A stretch of DNA of 64,000 nt, from the NCBI GenBank assembly GCA_029975295.1, contig JARKPK010000005.1, forward strand, positions 1 through 64,000, in the 5' to 3' direction. Position 1 is the stretch's first letter; each line of letters starts with the position of its first letter. Position numbers and translations under genes: made by a program. Source of the DNA: Thermoguttaceae bacterium. GTDB taxonomy: Bacteria > Planctomycetota > Planctomycetia > Pirellulales > Thermoguttaceae. Below the pieces are notes generated by a model. It saw nothing but the letters and a program-made list of their open reading frames with translations. It was not told the DNA's origin and did not search any database. Positions 16,467 to 29,814 of the stretch are shown here, in pieces.

Positions 16467-17369
16467 TCACCAGTGATGCAGCAAGCGTCGGAGCGATGCG
16501 CCGATTTCTTCGTCGCCGAAACGGAATCCCGCCTCGGTCAGCCTCTGAGGCATCGCCCGAGCCCCCCGAAGCAACAGGGCTTCGGCCATTTCTCCAAGGG
16601 CCAGAGACAAGACCAATCGGGGAACGCGGAAGATGGTTGGACGGCCAAGGGCTGCGCCCAACGCACGGGTGAACTCGCGATTCGTTGCCGGCCGCGGCGC
16701 GGTCAGATTGATCGGCCCGGCCAAACGGTCATCATTCAGAATCCATTCGACAGCGGCGGCGACATCATCGTTTGTGATCCAACTGATATACTGCCGCCCG
16801 TCGCCCAATACGCCGCCCATACCCCAGCGAAACACCGGCAGCATTTTGGCCAGCGCCCCGCCGGCAACATCGAGAACCATCCCAATGCGCAGGCAGACGA
16901 CTCGGCAACCATGCGACTCGGCCTTCAGCGAGGCAGTCTCCCATTGGCGGCAGAGGTCGGCCAGGAAGCCGACGCCCGGCGAGCTTTGCTCCGTGAGCAC
17001 TTCGTCGCCGCGACTGCCGTAGTAGCCGATGGCCGATGCCGACACGAACACCCGCGGCCTCGGCTGCGCGGAAGCGATGGCCTGAACCAACAATTCGGTC
17101 GCCTGCAAGCGGCTCGATGCGATGCGCTGCTTGACGCTTTCCGTCCACCGCGCCTGTGCGATGTTCTCGCCGGCAAGATTGACAACGGCATCGATGTCGC
17201 GCAACGCCTCGGGATCGATTCGCCCGAAGCCGGGATCCCAAGCATACTCGTCGCGATCCGGCTGCCGAGGCGGCCGAACAAGCCGCAACACGCGATGACC
17301 GGCCGTCGCAAAGCGGCGAACCAACCGCCCGCCAATCAACCCGCCCGCCCCGGCAATAAGAATGCGCAT
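16467..17369 (-). CDS. TIGR01777 family NAD(P)-binding epimerase-like protein
   Basis: 300 residues. MRILIAGAGGLIGGRLVRRF is the Rossmann start of the TIGR01777/YfcH (SDR39U1) family. The family signature VVNLAGENIAQARWTESVKQ follows near residue 60, then SASAIGYYGSRGDEVLTE and a C-terminal DUF1731-like domain (FRVPRLVLSLALGEMAEALL, GARAMPQRLTEAGF). Length is normal. The substrate is unknown in all members. The start lies 142 nt downstream of the PilM-fusion stop on the same strand. Confidence 0.92.
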   Translation of the reverse strand: MRILIAGAGGLIGGRLVRRFATAGHRVLRLVRPPRQPDRDEYAWDPGFGRIDPEALRDIDAVVNLAGENIAQARWTESVKQRIASSRLQATELLVQAIASAQPRPRVFVSASAIGYYGSRGDEVLTEQSSPGVGFLADLCRQWETASLKAESHGCRVVCLRIGMVLDVAGGALAKMLPVFRWGMGGVLGDGRQYISWITNDDVAAAVEWILNDDRLAGPINLTAPRPATNREFTRALGAALGRPTIFRVPRLVLSLALGEMAEALLLRGARAMPQRLTEAGFRFGDEEIGASLRRLLHHW

Positions 17370-17511
17370 GGAGATGGCCCCCGCGACAAGACCACGGCCT
17401 AAGCTGCCAAAGAAAGGATTGCCACGTCAGTTCATTATCGCCGCTTAGACAAGTGCGGCAATAAGGCTGCCGGACTGGGCGCGGGTTCGCCGCTGAACAC
17501 GGGCGAGGCGA

Positions 17512-20055
17512 TCAGCGACCGGTGCGCAGCAGGCGCAACAGACCGTGCAGCCGAGCGCCGCCGCCGGTCAGAAGCATTCTTGAGAAAACGACCTCCGGGA
17601 ACGATTTGCCCAACATGTCGATGCAATGGCCCAGTTCTGCCATCAAGTCGGCATGCACGGGCGCCATCGCCTTGAACAACGGATAGAGCAGGGGGGCTTT
17701 GAAGGGTTGTTGCTTCAACTCTTCAGCTTGCTGGAAGGTAAGGTTGAAATGCTGCACTAGCGCTCGCGTGTAGCTTTGGCCGCCGACGCCTAGGCTGCGC
17801 GTCCAAAGCAGCTTCGGCCCGCAGGCGATCACGCTCGATGAATCGGCTCCGATGTCGACGATCAACAGATTGCCGCCTTTATCGCCGAGCAACTCCCCAT
17901 TCGACTTTTCCGCCGGGCCGCTCTCGCCGCCCCGTTCGAAACGATCGACAAAAACCGCATTGTACAATGCCAGAGCATCGGCCTGCGCCGCGTCTACGGA
18001 AACGCCCAGCGACTGAAACCGCCCCAGCAGCCGCATCAGCAGCGCCCGCTTCGCCGCCGCAACAACGACTTCGTACTCGCGGCGCGGGGCAGCCGTCTTG
18101 TCGGGGCTTCTCGCTGCGGCGGCCCCAACCGCGAATTCGTCGATCGTTTGGAACCCCCAAACCAACTCCTCCAAAGCGATAGGCACTTGAACCCGCGACT
18201 CGAACTCGACAAGGGCTGCCAGCTTGTGCGTGTCGATCGGCGGAAGCTTGAACTGCCTCATCAGCAGCCAACGCGAGGAAAAGGCGACACCCACCCGATC
18301 CCCGCTGATTGGAGCCTGGGAGAGCAACTGCTTGAGCGACTCCTCGACCAAGCGGTCTTCCTCGGCATCGTTGACCGCCTGGTTCAACGGTTTGCGGTGA
18401 GCGACAGTCAAAGCGGTTTCGATCACCGCCGCCTGCGGCGCATCGGCAGGCGCCAGCTTGACCGCCTTGATGCACGAACGGCTCACATCGATTCCCCAAG
18501 CCGAGCGGGCGCGGAAACGCATCAACTGCTTCACGCGCCCAAAGACGGAATGGTAGTCGGGCGGAAGCAGATTGACTTTGACCGGCCCAAGGCCCAACAC
18601 CTGAAGCGCCATGCCCACGGCCGCCATAAAACCGCCCGGGTGTTGCGCCAAAACGGCCCCGTCGCACGAATCGGCGGGCCGAACGCTGGACAACCGCCAA
18701 AGCCAGTCGATCGGCATCCGAAAGGGCGTCTCCTTCGGCGCGGCCGCCCAGGCAACCGGAGCATACGATGGTTTTCGCGGGGCTTGAACGCGGGCCGCCA
18801 GTTGCGCGCACATCTTTGCGAGTTTCTCATCTTCTGGCATCTGCTTGCGACAGCGGGCCGCCATGTCCACCAGCGTGTCGTCAATGTACGGCGCGTTGCG
18901 AAGATCGTACAGCATCAGCGCCGTCTCGGCCACGCGATCGATCAGGACCGAAAGCTTTTCGCTGCGCACGGCCGCGGGCACTTGCTCCAACCATTGCAAC
19001 GCCTTCTCGAACTGCCGTTCCGCCGCAAGCTTTTCGGCAGCACGGCAGAGATGATCTTGTATTTGGATCGCGAGCTGGCGCGCGTGCGCGTGATCGGGTT
19101 TGAGGGCCAAGAGCCTTTCGATCTTCGGAAGCACGCCATCGAACCGTTTTGTCGCCACCGCAGTCTTCAGGTCGTGTTCCAACGACTCGATCTCGTCGAT
19201 CTTAGCGCTGCACTCGGAAATCAGCTCGCGGACCGGATCGGTTCGCAGCGCGTCGGCCACGGTTCGCAGCAACGTCAGCGCGCCGAGGTAGTCGTTCCGA
19301 GCCGCCATCGCCTGCGCTTCGGCAAGTTTTTCGTCGGCCGTGACCTTCCGACGATCGCGCTGCGCGGCCAAGTGCCGAATCATTTCGCCGGCGCGCTTGG
19401 CCCAATCGGTCAACCGCGGATGCTCCAATCGCGAAATGACCGCGAGTTGGTCGATGGCTTCGTCGAACCGGCTCTCGGCCTGCATCGTGGCGATCGAGGC
19501 GAAGATCGATTCGATTCGATCGACTTCGGCGTCGATCGCGCTTTCGATATTGGCGCCGCAGGCCCCGCAGAACTTCTCGCCCGACGCGCAAATCGTGTTG
19601 CAGCGAATGCACGGTTCCCACAAATGCAAGCCGCACTGAGCGCAGAACTTGCGGGTCGCCGGATTCGGGCTGCGGCAACGCCGGCATCGCAGAGTCGATC
19701 CTCGCGTTGCCGTATCTGCGGCAATGTCGGGAGGGGCGCCCGCAGCCAAAGAGTTCTGCAACGCCAAGTCGTACGCCGCCTTGCGGTCGGGATCGGTCAA
19801 CGTGTCGATGGCTTCCTCCAGCTCCTCGCGAATCTGCCGCCAAACCTCAGGCAACGCGTCGTGCCGGTGAGCCAACAGCGCCGCCCGCTGCGAAGCGGCC
19901 GCGGCGTGAATGATCTCCAAATCTTCTTCTCCGTTGGGCAAGAGCAACAACTGATAGGCGTTCAACGGACGCCGCAGCTCGCGCACCCCCAACCAGGCCC
20001 GATAGGGATCGAAGCCGATCGGTCGATCAAGTTCAGCAGCGGGATAATTGGACAT
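17512..20055 (-). CDS. J-like / double zinc-ribbon / helical / PilM-like fusion protein, PilM part apparently permuted
   Basis: About 847 residues from the ATG at 20055 (an upstream ATG at 20121 is possible). Residues of about 32-96 resemble a J domain (NAYQLLLLPNGEED to TDPDRKAAYD) but lack a visible HPD. Two zinc ribbons follow, with cysteines near 124/127/138/141 and 149/152/163/166. About 175-430 is helical with TPR- or coiled-coil-like repeats. From about 519 the type IV pilus PilM actin-like fold begins (AWGIDVSRSCIKAVKL) and includes LLIVDIGADSSS and LLTGGGARLHG. It then stops abruptly about 10 residues later, short of the normal PilM C-terminus. A segment resembling that missing end, MAAVGMALQVLGLG then VNLLPP, sits just before the PilM start (about residues 478-500). 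Last gene of a lipoprotein-DUF1573-fusion run. Confidence 0.85.
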   Translation of the reverse strand: MSNYPAAELDRPIGFDPYRAWLGVRELRRPLNAYQLLLLPNGEEDLEIIHAAAASQRAALLAHRHDALPEVWRQIREELEEAIDTLTDPDRKAAYDLALQNSLAAGAPPDIAADTATRGSTLRCRRCRSPNPATRKFCAQCGLHLWEPCIRCNTICASGEKFCGACGANIESAIDAEVDRIESIFASIATMQAESRFDEAIDQLAVISRLEHPRLTDWAKRAGEMIRHLAAQRDRRKVTADEKLAEAQAMAARNDYLGALTLLRTVADALRTDPVRELISECSAKIDEIESLEHDLKTAVATKRFDGVLPKIERLLALKPDHAHARQLAIQIQDHLCRAAEKLAAERQFEKALQWLEQVPAAVRSEKLSVLIDRVAETALMLYDLRNAPYIDDTLVDMAARCRKQMPEDEKLAKMCAQLAARVQAPRKPSYAPVAWAAAPKETPFRMPIDWLWRLSSVRPADSCDGAVLAQHPGGFMAAVGMALQVLGLGPVKVNLLPPDYHSVFGRVKQLMRFRARSAWGIDVSRSCIKAVKLAPADAPQAAVIETALTVAHRKPLNQAVNDAEEDRLVEESLKQLLSQAPISGDRVGVAFSSRWLLMRQFKLPPIDTHKLAALVEFESRVQVPIALEELVWGFQTIDEFAVGAAAARSPDKTAAPRREYEVVVAAAKRALLMRLLGRFQSLGVSVDAAQADALALYNAVFVDRFERGGESGPAEKSNGELLGDKGGNLLIVDIGADSSSVIACGPKLLWTRSLGVGGQSYTRALVQHFNLTFQQAEELKQQPFKAPLLYPLFKAMAPVHADLMAELGHCIDMLGKSFPEVVFSRMLLTGGGARLHGLLRLLRTGR

Positions 20056-23438: not shown

Positions 23439-24009
23439 GTACTCAACCCGATCGCGTGCGAATACCGGCGCCTTCGGCCGCTGGGAAAGCCACGGCCCAA
23501 CGCAACGAACTCTCGAAATGACGAGAGACATTGGGCGATTCTAAACGCGGTCCGTTACCTGCCCATGAGCCCCGTATTAGAAAAAAGCGAGCCTGTTTGG
23601 GGCCCGTTCATTGCTTTGAAGAAGCAATTCCATCAGCGGGAAAAGGCAGAAAGTCAAGATAGAGAAGGCAGAGCCATTGGACTAACCGGATATACTTACT
23701 TGCCGCGTCAGCAGCGTAAAAGCAGTGCGCATTTTGAGCTCACAAAACCTCTGTGTTTGATCGCCGAATACCTTTTGTTTCAACTGGCTAAATTGAACGA
23801 TCAATAGGCACGAAACCGCGAATACGAGACGAGTTGGTCGTGCGTGATCGGCCCCGGCCCGTCGGCATTGGGGCCAGGCAGCTTTCCCGAATGTCTAAGA
23901 CCGTTTGAGCTCTCGGTGGTGGAGCGGCGTGTTGAGGGCGGTTGAAAATGGCGACGACGGACAGCGAGCCGTCGACACAATCCGCAACAATTTTGTATGC
24001 GAGCCTTTC
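23439..24009. other. Divergent intergenic region with an AT-richer core
   Basis: 571 bases between the minus-strand lipoprotein gene and the plus-strand YyaL-like gene. Bases of about 23560-23810 are visibly poorer in GC than the surroundings, consistent with promoters or a short acquired tract. No gene, RNA family or repeat was recognised. A minus-strand frame crossing here into 25503 is an antisense shadow. Confidence 0.4.
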
Positions 24010-25809
24010 ATGTCCAATCGTCTTGCCGGTGAACTGAGCCTCTATCTTCGCCAACATGCCGACAATCCCGTCGATTGGCGGCCTTGGTCTCCCGACTGTC
24101 TGCGTTTGGCACAAGAGCAGCAGAGGCCGATATTTCTCTCCATCGGGTATTCTTCCTGCCACTGGTGCCACGTGATGGCCGAGGAGAGCTTTTCGAACGC
24201 GCACGTTGCCACACTGTTGAACGAGCGGTTCATACCCGTCAAGATCGATCGCGAGCAACGTCCCGACCTGGACCAGATTTGCATGGAGGCCGTGCAACTG
24301 ATGACCAGCCACGGCGGTTGGCCGCTGTCGGTATTTTTGACCCCGTCGGGCGAACCGTTCTTCGGTGGAACCTATTGGCCGCTGGCGGGCCGAGACGGCA
24401 TTCCGGGGTTTGCCGACATCCTTCGCGCTGTGGACGACGCATGGCAGAACCAACGGCCGCGCGTGGACGCCCAGGCGGCGCAATTGAGCGACGCCGTTCG
24501 TAGTGCGACTTTCGATCGTCCTGGGCAGACCGAATCGTTGCCGCTGCTGCGCGAGCAAGCGTTTGCGGCGGCCGAGGTCGAGTTGCGCGACATGTTCGAC
24601 CCGCAATGGGGCGGATTCGGTCGAGCGCCGAAGTTTCCGCAGGGCGTCTTGCTGCTTTGGCTGGTTCATCGCGCAACGGAAACAAATGACGCCGCGCTTT
24701 GGGCGATGCTCGGCAAGACGCTCGACGCGATGGCCGTCGGCGGCATTCATGACCACTTGGGCGGCGGGTTTCACCGCTACAGCACCGATGCCCAATGGCT
24801 CGTGCCGCATTTCGAAAAGATGTTGTACGACAATGCGTTGCTTGCGCAAGTGTACGCCAGGGCTTGGTGCAGACATCGGCGTCGGCTGTGGCGGCGGGTT
24901 GCCGAAGCCACGTGCGACTACATGATCCGCGATCTGCAATCGGTCGGCGGCGGCTTCTTTGGCAGTGAAGACGCCGACAGCGAGCACGAAGAAGGGCGGT
25001 TCTATCTGTGGACGCCGGACCAAGTGGCCCAAACCCTGGACGACCAACACCGCGCCACCCGCTTTTGCCGTGAATACGGAGTGTACCCCGGGGGCAATTT
25101 TGAAGGCCGTTCGATCCTCCACCTTCCGCTGAAGAAGGATTCGGCGGAAACGGGAGAAGCGGACGCGATCGACGCCGCGCTGGCGCCCGACCGCGCCGCG
25201 CTGCTTGCCGCGAGGTCGGGCCGGGTGCGCCCGCTGCGCGATGACAAGATCATTGCGGCGTGGAACGGGCTGGCCATCGCCGCTTTGGCGCGATGCGGGG
25301 AAATACTCGACCGCAGTGATTATGTCGAAGCGGCAAATCGGGCGGCTTCGTTTGTACGCGAGGAGATGAAGGACGATTCTGGCCGGCTCTGGCGATGCTG
25401 GCGCGATGGTCGCCGAGACCCGCCGGGCTTCCTCGACGACTACGCCTCGGTGGCCCTTGGATACTCGGCTCTCGCTCAAGTCACTGGGCAAAAGACATGG
25501 CAATCGGCCGCCGCCGGTTTGGCCAGCTCAATGCTTGCCCGGTTCGCCGATTCGACTGGGGGCTTTTTCTATACCCCAAACGACCACGAACCATTGTTCG
25601 CCCGAAAGAAAGACGTGATCGACACAGCGGAGCCCAGCGGCAACGGACTGGCGGCAACGTTGCTAATAGACCTGAGCGCGGCCACCGGCGATCAGCAATG
25701 GCGCCTGGCTGCCGAGAGAACCCTGGCCGTATTTGCCCACTGGTTGCGAATCCGACCGACCGCCTCGCCGCAAATGCTGCTTGCCCTGGCGAGCTGGCCA
25801 GGGGGGTGA
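24010..25809 (+). CDS. YyaL/SSP411-type thioredoxin-domain protein (DUF255), C-terminus short
   Basis: 599 residues starting MSNRLAGELSLYLRQHADNP, the usual start of the family. The thioredoxin-like DUF255 domain (residues 1-165) has SSCHWCHVM with a CxxC, and HGGWPLSVFLTPSGEPFFGGTY. The rest is a six-hairpin-type helical domain (GGIHDHLGGGFHRYS, WLVPHFEKMLYDNALLA, FFGSEDADSEHEEGRFYLW). Bacterial relatives are about 680 residues; this one stops at LALASWPGG and lacks roughly the last 80-100 residues. A run of seven G at the stop codon is a possible slippage or error site. Function unknown; relatives are linked to redox or sugar-epimerase-like folds. Confidence 0.88.
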   Translation: MSNRLAGELSLYLRQHADNPVDWRPWSPDCLRLAQEQQRPIFLSIGYSSCHWCHVMAEESFSNAHVATLLNERFIPVKIDREQRPDLDQICMEAVQLMTSHGGWPLSVFLTPSGEPFFGGTYWPLAGRDGIPGFADILRAVDDAWQNQRPRVDAQAAQLSDAVRSATFDRPGQTESLPLLREQAFAAAEVELRDMFDPQWGGFGRAPKFPQGVLLLWLVHRATETNDAALWAMLGKTLDAMAVGGIHDHLGGGFHRYSTDAQWLVPHFEKMLYDNALLAQVYARAWCRHRRRLWRRVAEATCDYMIRDLQSVGGGFFGSEDADSEHEEGRFYLWTPDQVAQTLDDQHRATRFCREYGVYPGGNFEGRSILHLPLKKDSAETGEADAIDAALAPDRAALLAARSGRVRPLRDDKIIAAWNGLAIAALARCGEILDRSDYVEAANRAASFVREEMKDDSGRLWRCWRDGRRDPPGFLDDYASVALGYSALAQVTGQKTWQSAAAGLASSMLARFADSTGGFFYTPNDHEPLFARKKDVIDTAEPSGNGLAATLLIDLSAATGDQQWRLAAERTLAVFAHWLRIRPTASPQMLLALASWPGG

Positions 25810-25958
25810 CCGTTTGGCGCAGTGCCCATCTCCCTCGAACCCCTCGAACCAATCGGCTGGAGAGACGCCTGGGGGGCGACTCGAAAACCCGCTGTTTTCT
25901 GTTATGCTCGATAGAGGAAAACAGCGAAAACCCCCAAGCGAAGCGGCAGCAAAACGCC

Positions 25959-27101
25959 ATGGAACTGCAACGGGTGCGGATTCTGCTGGTTGAAGACGAT
26001 CCCGACGATGTCTGGCTGATGCGGAACCTGCTGGGCGACCGCTGGGACGGCCCCTTCGAGCTGATCCATGTCGAGTTGCTTTCCGCGGCCATTGAACTGT
26101 GTCGGGAGCAGTCGTTCGATGTCGTGTTGCTGGATCTCGGCCTGCCTGACAGCCGCGGCCTGGGCACGTTCCTGAGGATGCAATCGGCGGTAAACGATCT
26201 GCCCATCGTGGTGCTCTCCGGCTATGCCGACGAGGCCATGGCCGTCAAGGCTGTTCAGGCCGGCGCCCAAGACTACTTGGTCAAGGGCCAAGTTGACGAC
26301 AACTCCCTGGTTCGTTCCTTGCGTTACGCCATTGAACGCACCCGCCGTCGCACCGCGGAAGAGGCCCTGCGGCAAACCAAAGAAGAATTCAGACTCGCAC
26401 AAGAGATTCAGCAGCGGCTCTTTCCTGCGTCTGCACCGAATGTACCGGGATTCGAAATTGCCGGATCGCTCTTTCCGGCGAAGTCGGCCGCGGGCGATTA
26501 TTACGACTATTTCCCGCTCAGCGACGGGTCGACTGCATTGGCTGTTGGCGATGTCAGCAGCCACGGCATGGGGCCGGCGCTGTTGATGTCGGAAACTCGG
26601 GCCTGCCTGCGCACGCTTGCGCAAACCCTCGATGATCTTGGGGACATCCTCACAAAGGCCAACCACCTCCTCACGGCCGACACAAGCGATTTCCACTTCG
26701 TTACGCTCGCCGTTGTGCGATTGAACCCCAGCGATCGAACCCTTGTGTACGCCGGCGCCGGTCAACGCAGTTATTTGCTCCGCAACGATGGGCGACTTGA
26801 GCTTCTCGACACGGCGAGCTTGCCGCTGGGGGTTCGCGACGATCTGGTCGTTGCCGCCAGCGATCCGATTCCCTTGAATCCCGGCGATCTGGTGGTGCTG
26901 ATGACCGATGGTGTGTACGAGGCCGAATCCCCGCGTCAGGAACGCCTGGGAATCGATCGCGTTTTCTCGGCAATCCGACGAGTTCGAGACCGCTCGGCCC
27001 AGACTATCCTCGACGAGGTGTTCGCGGAAATCCGGCGGTTCACCGCGGGCAGCCCTCCGCAAGACGACGTTACCATGGTCGTCGCCAAGGTTCTCGGCTG
27101 A
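25959..27101 (+). CDS. Response regulator with PP2C-type serine phosphatase output (RsbU-like)
   Basis: 380 residues from the ATG at 25959. The N-terminal receiver has acidic EDDPDD near residue 12, phospho-acceptor Asp in VVLLDLGLPDS near residue 57, and Lys in DYLVKGQ near 108. A short helix links to a PP2C/SpoIIE phosphatase (residues 145-380) with motifs AQEIQQRLFP, SAAGDYYDYF, VGDVSSHGMGPALLM, LVLMTDGVYEA and QDDVTMVV. Such proteins dephosphorylate anti-sigma antagonists in partner-switching pathways. No partner sigma, anti-sigma or histidine kinase is adjacent. It begins 150 nt after the YyaL-like gene. Confidence 0.93.
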   Translation: MELQRVRILLVEDDPDDVWLMRNLLGDRWDGPFELIHVELLSAAIELCREQSFDVVLLDLGLPDSRGLGTFLRMQSAVNDLPIVVLSGYADEAMAVKAVQAGAQDYLVKGQVDDNSLVRSLRYAIERTRRRTAEEALRQTKEEFRLAQEIQQRLFPASAPNVPGFEIAGSLFPAKSAAGDYYDYFPLSDGSTALAVGDVSSHGMGPALLMSETRACLRTLAQTLDDLGDILTKANHLLTADTSDFHFVTLAVVRLNPSDRTLVYAGAGQRSYLLRNDGRLELLDTASLPLGVRDDLVVAASDPIPLNPGDLVVLMTDGVYEAESPRQERLGIDRVFSAIRRVRDRSAQTILDEVFAEIRRFTAGSPPQDDVTMVVAKVLG

Positions 27102-27282: not shown

Positions 27283-28122
27283 ATGCCTGAATTGCCCGAA
27301 GTCGAAACGATGCGGCGTTGCATCGAACCTGTCGCAGGATCGCTGATTGTCCGCGCATGGCAACCGTCGAGCAACTTGCAATCGATCCGATTCATTCCCT
27401 CATGGCGAGTGGTCCGCGATGGACTGAAAGGGCGGCGCATCAGCGAGGTTGCCCGACTGGGCAAACGATTGATTCTCCATCTCGACGACTCGCGATGCTT
27501 GGTGATCGAACCGCGGATGACTGGCTTGGTCATGCTAGCCAGCCCGCCCAACCGGAGCCATTTGCGTCTCGTTCTGGAGTTGAGCCGCCCCGACGCGCCG
27601 CGTCTGCTTTTCTGGGACCAACGCGGCCTCGGCGTCGTGCAATTGCTGACCGAGGCGGAGTTCGCACACCAGTTCGGGCCCGATCGGATCGGTCCCGACG
27701 CACTGACTGTCGCTAGAAGAGATTTCGTTGCCCGTTTCCAGAACTCCCGCCGTCCGATCAAGGTAGCCCTGCTCGACCAGAAGGCGCTGGCGGGCATCGG
27801 CAATCTCTACGCTTCTGAAATGCTTCATCGGGCCCGAATCCATCCCTGCACACCATGCGATTGCCTTCCTATCGTCCAATGGGTTCGGCTTTGGAAGGCA
27901 ATGCGCGTCATTCTCACCGAAGCCATCGCCCACCAAGGGACCACCTTGCGCGACGGTACCTACCGGATTGCGGCGGACGAGCCGGGAACCCACCAGCATC
28001 ATCTTCGCGTCTATCAGCGTCAGGGCCAGCCCTGCTTTCAATGCCGGCGTGGCCGGATCGTGCGAATCGTTCAGGCGCAGCGATCCACCTTCTTCTGTCC
28101 CCGTTGCCAGGCCGAGCTGTAG
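27283..28122 (+). CDS. mutM: Formamidopyrimidine-DNA glycosylase MutM (Fpg)
   Basis: 279 residues, full length. MPELPEVETMRR gives the catalytic N-terminal Pro and Glu. The helix-two-turn-helix region includes DQKALAGIGNLYASEMLHRARIHP. The C-terminal zinc finger CFQCRRGRIVR ... FFCPRCQ has all four cysteines. The enzyme removes 8-oxoguanine and other oxidised purines and nicks the abasic site. A strong terminator follows at 28166. The last 33 codons or so plus 54 nt downstream are duplicated 806 nt further on (28830-28982), but this gene copy is intact. Confidence 0.96.
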   Translation: MPELPEVETMRRCIEPVAGSLIVRAWQPSSNLQSIRFIPSWRVVRDGLKGRRISEVARLGKRLILHLDDSRCLVIEPRMTGLVMLASPPNRSHLRLVLELSRPDAPRLLFWDQRGLGVVQLLTEAEFAHQFGPDRIGPDALTVARRDFVARFQNSRRPIKVALLDQKALAGIGNLYASEMLHRARIHPCTPCDCLPIVQWVRLWKAMRVILTEAIAHQGTTLRDGTYRIAADEPGTHQHHLRVYQRQGQPCFQCRRGRIVRIVQAQRSTFFCPRCQAEL

Positions 28123-28176
28123 CCGTTGCGGGCCGCCGAGGCCCAACGTAGATTCGGCCCGATCCGGGGACCGCAC
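28024..28176 (+). repeat. Direct repeat, left copy (mutM 3' end)
   Basis: 153 bp identical to 28830-28982 except one base (C at 28107, T at 28913, silent in mutM). It covers the end of mutM, its stop, and the left arm of the mutM terminator. It is part of the intact gene, so it is the likely original copy. Confidence 0.95.
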
Positions 28177-28205
28177 GGTGACGCACCGTGCCGCGTCCCC
28201 TTTTT
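28166..28205 (+). terminator. Intrinsic terminator after mutM
   Basis: The outer stem GGGGAC/GTCCCC and inner stem CACGGTG/CACCGTG with loop ACG form a long hairpin, followed by TTTTT at 28201-28205. It lies 44 nt after the mutM stop. The right end of the 153-bp repeat (28176) falls inside the left inner arm. Confidence 0.85.
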
Positions 28206-28248
28206 CGCCCTTCTGCGCACGCGGTTCTAGGTCCAATCTCAGGCGGGT

Positions 28249-28277
28249 TTGCTGAGACGAATGCCTGCAGCTACAAT
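28249..28277 (+). promoter_or_regulatory. Candidate promoter of hicBA
   Basis: TTGCTG and TACAAT with 17-nt spacing, ending 38 nt before the hicB start. It lies just after the mutM terminator, so hicBA appears to be an independent unit. HicB-type antitoxins often repress their own promoter, but no operator was identified. Confidence 0.5.
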
Positions 28278-28315
28278 TAATGAGTCGGATTGGCCCGAGA
28301 AATGAGAGGCGCAGC

Positions 28316-28507
28316 ATGCAGCTCGTCAAGATCGTGATTTGGCAGGAAGGCGACGTCTGGGTCGGCTATCTCCAGGATTACCCTGATTACTGGACGCAGG
28401 GCGAAAGCATTGATGATCTCAAGGAGCATCTGAAAGACCTCTATGCGGATTTGACTGCGGGATTGATTCCCGGTGCACGTCGAGTCGAGGATCTGGTCAT
28501 TTCATGA
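28316..28507 (+). CDS. hicB: HicB-like antitoxin, minimal form
   Basis: 63 residues from the ATG at 28316 (GAGAGG about 7 nt upstream; a start at 28280 is less likely). It has the HicB partial RNase-H-like fold: VKIVIWQEGDVWVGYLQDYP, then the TQGESIDDLKEHLKDLYADL helix. It lacks the C-terminal helix-turn-helix or ribbon-helix-helix domain found in longer HicB proteins. Its stop overlaps the hicA start by 4 nt (ATGA), so the antitoxin is translated first. It neutralises HicA by binding (family knowledge). Confidence 0.85.
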   Translation: MQLVKIVIWQEGDVWVGYLQDYPDYWTQGESIDDLKEHLKDLYADLTAGLIPGARRVEDLVIS

Positions 28508-28716
28508 AGCGCGTTGACCTGATCAAGACGATTGAAGGATTTGGCTGCGTCCTGATTCGATACGGCGCGAAGCACGACTGGTACCGCAATCCCAAAACGG
28601 GAGTCGCTCAACCAATCCCGCGTCATCGAGAGATCAACGAGAATCTTGCCCGACACATCATCCGAATGCTCCGAAACGACGATGAGCAAGGCAAAGGACG
28701 ATCGGCCGTAAAGTAG
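28504..28716 (+). CDS. hicA: HicA-like mRNA interferase toxin
   Basis: 70 residues with the double-stranded RNA-binding-like fold of HicA: MKRVDLIKTIEGFGCVLIRYG, then HDWYRNPKTGVAQPIPRHREI and NENLARHIIRML. The first His (KHDW) corresponds to the catalytic His of HicA. The toxin cleaves mRNA when not bound by HicB (family knowledge). Gene order antitoxin-toxin, overlapping by 4 nt. The pair lies between two copies of the mutM 3' end. Confidence 0.85.
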   Translation: MKRVDLIKTIEGFGCVLIRYGAKHDWYRNPKTGVAQPIPRHREINENLARHIIRMLRNDDEQGKGRSAVK

Positions 28717-28829
28717 CTTCGCTTCAATCGTGGCTGCATCACAATCGTGATGGTCTGGGTCCGTCGCATCGGCAACGCCAGCGTTTGCCTGGTTTTCACC
28801 CGGCAACCTGCCCGACTATCCGATCGGAC

Positions 28830-28982
28830 GGCCAGCCCTGCTTTCAATGCCGGCGTGGCCGGATCGTGCGAATCGTTCAGGCGCAGCGATCCACCTTCTT
28901 CTGTCCCCGTTGTCAGGCCGAGCTGTAGCCGTTGCGGGCCGCCGAGGCCCAACGTAGATTCGGCCCGATCCGGGGACCGCAC
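28830..28982 (+). repeat. Direct repeat, right copy (mutM 3' fragment)
   Basis: 152 of 153 bases match 28024-28176. It holds the final codons of mutM without the rest of the gene, so it is a gene fragment. It breaks off inside what would be the terminator stem; the following bases (28983 onward) differ from those after the left copy. Confidence 0.95.
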
Positions 28983-29101
28983 TCCGATCGACCGTCCGGC
29001 GTGCTTGGCTCATGCCGTCTCTTGATCCCCTGCCGCGTTGTGGGGCCGTGCCCGATTGCCTGGCATCCGCCGGCCCGTTGTCTGGGCTTTTCCGCTGCCT
29101 G

Positions 29102-29147
29102 GATCGTGCCACAGGCCCTAATCGATTAGGCAGTTGCCGGCACGATC
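29102..29147. promoter_or_regulatory. Nested inverted repeats
   Basis: GATCGTGCC (29102-29110) pairs with GGCACGATC (29139-29147). Between them lies a perfect 14-bp palindrome CCTAATCGATTAGG (29117-29130). The arrangement suggests a protein-binding site or a cruciform; there is no T-run, so it is not a typical terminator. Confidence 0.4.
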
Positions 29148-29193
29148 AGAAGACAGTCAGAGATTACGCCCAGAATGCACGCGCCGCGCGCAT

Positions 29194-29220
29194 GCCGTGC
29201 CCAGCACATAGGCTTTTTTT
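29194..29220 (+). terminator. Weak terminator-like hairpin
   Basis: GCC-GTGC, loop CCA, GCAC-ATA-GGC, then TTTTTTT. The stem is short with a bulge, but the seven T are unusual in this GC-rich DNA. It would end transcripts coming from the hicBA side before glnB. Confidence 0.4.
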
Positions 29221-29368
29221 GTGTCCATCGAATCGGTCCGGCCTCTCCCCCCGAAACGAGCGCGAGTCTGCACGATTTTCTTTGATCGAACACTTCTTGT
29301 TTACGGGCAAGAACTTAGAGCAACCAACCCCGGAATCGCATCCCTTAAAAACCACCCGCGAAGGGTCA

Positions 29369-29386
29369 CGGGCACACGTATTGCAT
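29369..29386 (+). promoter_or_regulatory. glnB: Candidate sigma-54 promoter of glnB-amt
   Basis: CGGGCACACGTATTGCAT matches the sigma-54 pattern TGGCAC-N5-TTGCW with GG and GC exactly 12 nt apart; only the first T and one G differ. It ends 89 nt before the glnB start. PII and ammonium-transporter operons are classic sigma-54/NtrC targets in other bacteria, so the location fits. Confidence 0.6.
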
Positions 29387-29475
29387 TGCGACTCGACAAC
29401 GCGCGTTCTCTTGTCCGTTTTCGGGCAAGAGTGTCTCTCCAACCAACTCCCTAGTTCCCTGCTGAAAGCGACGCC

Positions 29476-29814
29476 ATGAAGAAAGTGGAAGCGTTGATCC
29501 GGCACTTCAAGCTGGAAGATGTGAAAGAAGCGCTGGCGCAAGCCGGCGTAAAGGGGATGACGATTACGGAAGTTCGCGGTTTCGGACGCCAGAAGGGCCA
29601 CACCGAAGTCTACCGCGGCACCGAGTACACGGTTGACTTCGTCCCGAAGATCAAAGTCGAGGTGGCCGTGGGAGACAAAGATCTTCCGGCCGTGCTCGAT
29701 GCCATCGCGCGTGCCGCAAAGACGGGGCAAGTGGGAGACGGCAAGATTTTCGTCTCCGACCTGAGTGAAGTGGTCCGCATTCGCACCGGTGAGTCGGGCG
29801 ATGCTGCCATCTGA
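29476..29814 (+). CDS. glnB: Nitrogen regulatory protein PII
   Basis: 112 residues, standard length. MKKVEALIRHFKLEDVKEAL begins the fold. The T-loop carries VYRGTEYTVDFVPK with the uridylylation Tyr near residue 51, and the B-loop ends in TGQVGDGKIFV. PII trimers sense ATP/ADP and 2-oxoglutarate and gate the ammonium channel encoded next. The amt start is 68 nt downstream on the same strand, so they are co-transcribed. The adjacency to amt would support the name glnK as well. Confidence 0.96.
   Translation: MKKVEALIRHFKLEDVKEALAQAGVKGMTITEVRGFGRQKGHTEVYRGTEYTVDFVPKIKVEVAVGDKDLPAVLDAIARAAKTGQVGDGKIFVSDLSEVVRIRTGESGDAAI

Follow-up and report, generated by a model that had tools for sequence, protein, structure and literature searches.

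In the 64-kb window, i.e., the whole stretch of 64,000 nucleotides from a Thermoguttaceae bacterium that was analysed, a hicB-hicA toxin-antitoxin (TA) pair sits between two almost identical copies of the 3' end of mutM. The reading ranked most likely, with a probability of roughly one half, is an insertion of the module coupled to a duplication of the gene end. A coupled event at mutM was considered likelier because a second, independent case was found at queC in the same genome, where a restriction-modification (R-M) pair takes the place of hicBA. At both sites the module is enclosed by long direct repeats of the host target, an arrangement suggesting that a genome can acquire addiction genes through duplication of one of its gene ends.

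The two copies, at 28024-28176 and 28830-28982, differ by one mismatch in 153 bp (C28107/T28913), exactly as the first-pass annotation had stated. This mismatch is a synonymous change in a mutM Cys codon, and the longest exact run inside the repeat measures 83 bp. Similarity ends at both edges, with nothing significant beyond either end. The pair is the sole long repeat of the window, the search of which revealed no further direct repeat with at least 16 exact bases within 10 kb and no other similar repeat exceeding 32 nt. The left copy consists of 99 nt of the mutM 3' end and 54 nt beyond the stop codon. mutM itself (27283..28122, plus strand) is intact and encodes a formamidopyrimidine-DNA glycosylase with 47-60% identity to planctomycete homologues; the Fpg domains are present (PF01149, PF06831 and PF06827), the C-terminal zinc finger among them. 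The right copy encodes the last 32 residues of MutM only, and the next gene downstream is glnB (P-II; 29476..29814, plus strand; PF00543). Known RNA families were found neither in the mutM/hicBA region nor in the queC region.

The mutM terminator was used to decide which copy is native. An intrinsic terminator of about 15 pairs with bulges, followed by T5, was predicted at 28166..28205 by RNA folding and by a terminator-like match on the plus strand. In the predicted fold, the stem contains two bulged bases, and about 11 pairs span the 28176/28177 boundary. The left copy ends at 28176 in the ascending arm, and the right copy ends at the same base, without the descending arm. It is very unlikely that about 11 pairs linking the end of the left copy to sequence past the boundary originated by chance. 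Since the bulged stem pairs across its boundary, the left copy (28024..28176, plus strand), with the ascending half of the terminator stem, was taken as the native mutM 3' end. The right copy (28830..28982, plus strand), with 32 C-terminal mutM codons and half a terminator stem, was taken as derived because its end falls inside the stem, i.e., as a truncated and presumably non-functional remnant. Due to the bulges, the stem does not look like a fresh fold-back (self-) copy. Thus, repeat boundaries and RNA fold agreed with the earlier assignment of the left copy to intact mutM and of the right copy to a fragment ending in the middle of the terminator stem.

A plain target duplication fits poorly at mutM because it is the left copy alone that runs on into the rest of the terminator; this asymmetry argues against plain duplication unless the other half of the terminator arrived with the insert. 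Since the right copy does not continue into the terminator, an extra copying step or a deletion would be needed at mutM. The terminator also bears on a Campbell-type origin, in which circular or linear DNA carrying a mutM 3' end and hicBA integrated by homologous recombination in mutM. Such an integration would yield the geometry of copy, module and copy, and a donor from a close strain would explain how little the copies differ. The recipient mutM, however, would have adjoined position 28983 and lacked a terminator, whereas the donor possessed one. A donor junction 28829/28024 is further required, which would itself need an explanation, and a Campbell-type origin was regarded as improbable. 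The first-pass annotation had proposed an insertion or duplication event by recombination at the mutM end. This proposal is partly supported, by the derived nature of the right copy and by the queC case, whereas plain duplication or integration clashes with a terminator on the left only. The recent origin it had assigned to the event was based on the identity of the copies, which gene conversion could also explain.

The site where the right copy entered is associated with a palindrome. When the right copy was excised in silico, TCCGATCGGAC (28819..28829), at its left edge, met TCCGATCGACC, and a perfect palindrome with arms of 8-9 bp resulted; the uncertainty between 8 and 9 bp stems from two G residues common to donor and target. 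TCCGATCGGAC is thus the palindrome partner of 28983-28990 once the copy is removed, and TCCGATCG (28983..28990), at the right edge, is an 8-bp repeat of 28819-28826. Among randomly rejoined sites of the window, an 8-bp palindrome arose in 0.05% and a 9-bp palindrome in 0.005%. A donor end in a terminator stem and a palindromic target, both hairpin-prone, would fit template switching. The main rival reading draws on the same features: hicBA was already present, and a later template switch during replication or repair brought a 153-nt stretch of mutM into the downstream palindrome. The pairing with hicBA would then be incidental, or the repeats would have been kept since deletants lose the addiction module; if the mutM copy is independent of hicBA, it represents an ordinary template-switch duplication. 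One event suffices for this reading, which accounts for the complete terminator on the left only and relates both tract ends to inverted repeats, namely the donor terminator stem and the 8-9 bp target palindrome. The queC case is not predicted by it, however, since the gene-end copies at queC enclose a module that was itself inserted, and a later template switch was considered possible rather than likely. Removing the queC copy yielded no palindrome at the queC site, and the mutM and queC cases may therefore differ in mechanism.

The hicBA module was characterized by alignment, protein family search and structural modelling. hicB (28316..28507, plus strand) encodes a predicted antitoxin of 63 aa with a beta-beta-beta-alpha partial RNase H fold and no DNA-binding domain, as judged from the family alignment, the model and a Foldseek match to HicB of B. 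pseudomallei. hicA (28504..28716, plus strand), which overlaps the hicB stop by 4 nt, encodes a predicted toxin of 70 aa with an alpha-beta-beta-beta-alpha fold. HicA matches PF07927 (E 4e-8), and its His24, a catalytic-type residue, is nearly invariant across 15 aligned homologues. The HicA model (pLDDT 82) was closest to the solved HicA toxins of E. coli and B. pseudomallei, and the top six Foldseek matches were HicA chains; the E-values were weak (0.016 for the best), which was put down to the very short fold. The HicB model (pLDDT 88) was closest to the N-terminal domain of B. pseudomallei HicB, also with weak E-values. HicB found no match among the Pfam and NCBIfam models, and the alignment showed that hicB is kept beside hicA across the family. 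The module shares with HicAB type II systems the overlapping hicB-hicA pair, the HicA fold with its His and the partial RNase H fold of HicB, but differs in that HicB is very short, lacks a DNA-binding domain and is missed by the family models.

Compared with the homologue in the relative G015, hicB and hicA showed nonsynonymous divergence of 0.13-0.14 per site and synonymous divergence near saturation. With dN well below dS, both genes are, judging from these substitution rates, under strong purifying selection. The segment between the copies (28177..28829) has a G+C content of 55.4% versus 61.6% for the window and ranks in the lowest 1.2% of 653-bp stretches. The best hicBA homologues, with 76-80% aa identity, occupy other genomic sites in relatives of the same family, and homologues aligned in full resemble the window only in hicB, hicA and about 12 bp ahead of them. 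Low G+C content, purifying selection and the other loci in relatives indicate that hicBA was probably acquired. Thus, hicBA is most likely a real TA pair, as predicted from sequence and models, that came from elsewhere. The other open reading frames tested in 28177-28829 matched no family, and neither an integrase nor a mobility gene was found there. In the first-pass annotation, hicBA had been described as lying between the repeats with its own promoter. The genuine, foreign-looking TA pair was corroborated, whereas the search for a sigma-70-type promoter found none, with a search model that may not cover planctomycete promoters.

In 1.71 Mb of the same genome, about one third of it, direct repeats with an identity of 85% or more, a length of 35 bp or more and a spacing of 0.3-8 kb were surveyed. 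Widely spaced direct repeats were few, and among them only those at mutM and queC were copied gene 3' ends. Other long repeats were rejected as gene-end copies, being in-frame protein repeats, dispersed intergenic repeats or Hint-toxin cassettes. At locus L267 (G000:C118, 1969-4798), tandem pretoxin-Hint segments with repeats of 147 bp (94.6%) and 65 bp (95%) are joined to different toxin ends, one of them matching Tox-URI2, and were recognized as polymorphic-toxin cassettes.

At the queC locus (L240; G000:C38), queC (16768-17694) is followed by a DNA methylase gene (17751-18785, minus strand; PF01555) and by a gene (18784-19707) encoding a putative nuclease, an HTH protein whose C-terminal part is of the ExK type. 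These two genes, in the region 16768-20000, are divergent with overlapping starts. Beyond them the queC 3' end recurs over 63 bp (19713-19775 versus 17653-17715; 97%), and this copy leads on to queD (PF01242). The 1997-bp insert has the lowest G+C content of equal stretches in its 20 kb. queD follows queC directly in 24 of 29 relatives, none of which has the module or a copied queC end; these relatives are too diverged for a base-by-base alignment of the target. Based on this adjacency, an insertion of the R-M pair between queC and queD is well supported by the comparison of gene orders. Both loci thus have the layout of an intact host gene, an addiction module, a copy of the gene 3' end and the rest of the locus. 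The number of cases is two, and the gene-end class was defined after both had been seen; with mutM as the starting point, queC alone counts as independent support.

Genomic islands and integrative elements occur at the 3' ends of tRNA genes or other genes. With these, both loci share an intact gene on one side and a 3'-end fragment on the other. The mutM locus could be the remnant of a site-specific integrative element, with the two copies as attL and attR and an integrase that was lost or acts in trans. The intact gene, the distal 3' fragment with its partial terminator and the same layout at queC would be as expected for such a remnant. However, neither an integrase nor a mobility gene occurs in the 653-bp or the 1997-bp insert, the former being very small for an island. 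In addition, the two inserts have no sequence in common, and the repeat length varies between the sites (153 versus 63 bp). An integrative element was therefore judged highly improbable.

The source is a draft assembly of 5.0 Mb in 190 contigs, a state that would favour an artefact, and an artefactual second copy had been named beforehand as a possible refutation. Several contig ends overlap one another by exactly 141 bp, which indicates an apparent assembly k of 141. Since the longest exact run of 83 bp is shorter than this k, both repeat copies should resolve. Furthermore, a distinguishing base lies within the repeat, each junction region occurs once in the genome, and a whole-genome search found the 959-bp stretch once. 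Segments of the right flank were ruled out as repeated elements, as they also occur as a single copy. Together with the like pattern at queC, these findings speak against an artefact, which was deemed extremely unlikely.

For the preferred reading of an insertion coupled to gene-end duplication, we infer the coupling at mutM, a copying mechanism and addiction-based persistence. The right copy may stem from DNA synthesis that began within mutM, proceeded for 153 nt and halted in the terminator hairpin, whereupon the new strand would have rejoined at the palindrome beside the hicBA module. The copying step could have been a template switch in the course of break repair or replication. Loss of hicBA by recombination between the copies is plausible from the sequence and from general TA biology. 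Such a deletion would take hicBA and the mutM terminator and would leave the MutM protein unaltered, because the single difference between the repeats is synonymous. Cells deleting the 806-bp unit would, however, face free HicA. If the module harms cells that lose it, such recombinants would be selected against, and the repeat pair would persist.

Comparison with relatives covered both the host gene and the module. Searches with mutM, with hicA and with the whole 2.5-kb stretch led to homologues in other genera as the nearest ones (at most 60% aa identity for mutM), too distant for an empty-site comparison; the mutM-glnB neighbourhood is not kept across the family, and no clear downstream copies of mutM tails were found in relatives. 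Repeat bracketing was rejected as a general hicBA trait, since 29 loci of the family and 80 loci in viral contigs do not generally show it. Three of the 29 family loci had flank repeats at E <1e-6; two of these were low-complexity or pseudo-repetitive, and the third (31 bp, 90%) was near the background of about 1-2%. This third locus (L129; G064:C223) has intergenic repeats at 1100-1130 and 1727-1757 with a spacing of 627 and a GGGTCTCCGGGATCTGTATTA core. Two cases were met among the viral loci, of which one proved to be a dispersed element and the other was weak. The other addiction-type genes examined in the same genome (three PIN loci and one methylase at C103) were not bracketed.

Insertion with long target duplication has been described for R-M genes. 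PMC3874152 and PMC3031569 report that R-M genes insert with long and variable target duplications of about 100 bp, and PMC1643837 describes such insertions for R-M genes in H. pylori. All three sources cite Nobusato et al. 2000, Gene 259:99-108, for this mode. The loci described here share with it a small addiction module without mobility genes between direct repeats of host sequence of about 100 bp, and the R-M pair at queC fits directly. They differ in that one module is a TA pair, that the repeats are gene 3' ends with the host gene left intact, and that the distal copy at mutM breaks off inside the terminator. Moved genes in Arabidopsis lie between direct repeats of the target sequence, and a model of circle excision followed by integration has been proposed for them (PMC2869330). 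Copies of host sequence from the target site on both sides are shared with this system, which concerns a eukaryote and other gene classes.

For the question of how small TA and R-M modules can move in the absence of transposases, defined junctions are offered by this genome, in which two modules of different type each lie behind an intact gene and are followed by a copy of its end. It is doubtful, though conceivable, that a general integrase-free route operates in this lineage by which TA and R-M modules enter behind genes by copying the gene 3' end across. If it does, the host gene would never be broken, and the module would be held between repeats whose recombination it punishes. Confirmation in close strains would widen the scope of insertion with long target duplication, described for R-M genes, so as to include TA pairs as well as Planctomycetes. 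It would also allow a direct measurement of whether addiction guards a repeat-bracketed segment against deletion.

Two further observations concern the surroundings of mutM. Upstream, where the order of a PP2C-type response-regulator gene and mutM is retained in several family members, the longest open reading frame of the regulator (25395-27101) overlaps the upstream open reading frame (23905-25809) by about 400 bp, and the regulator probably starts near 25960 (MELQRVRILLVEDD). Downstream, a long intergenic region (29100-29475) precedes glnB. It contains a hairpin with a T-tract on the minus strand (29374-29353) and two copies of GTTT(A/T)CGGGCAAGA, which are possibly glnB-amt regulatory sites.
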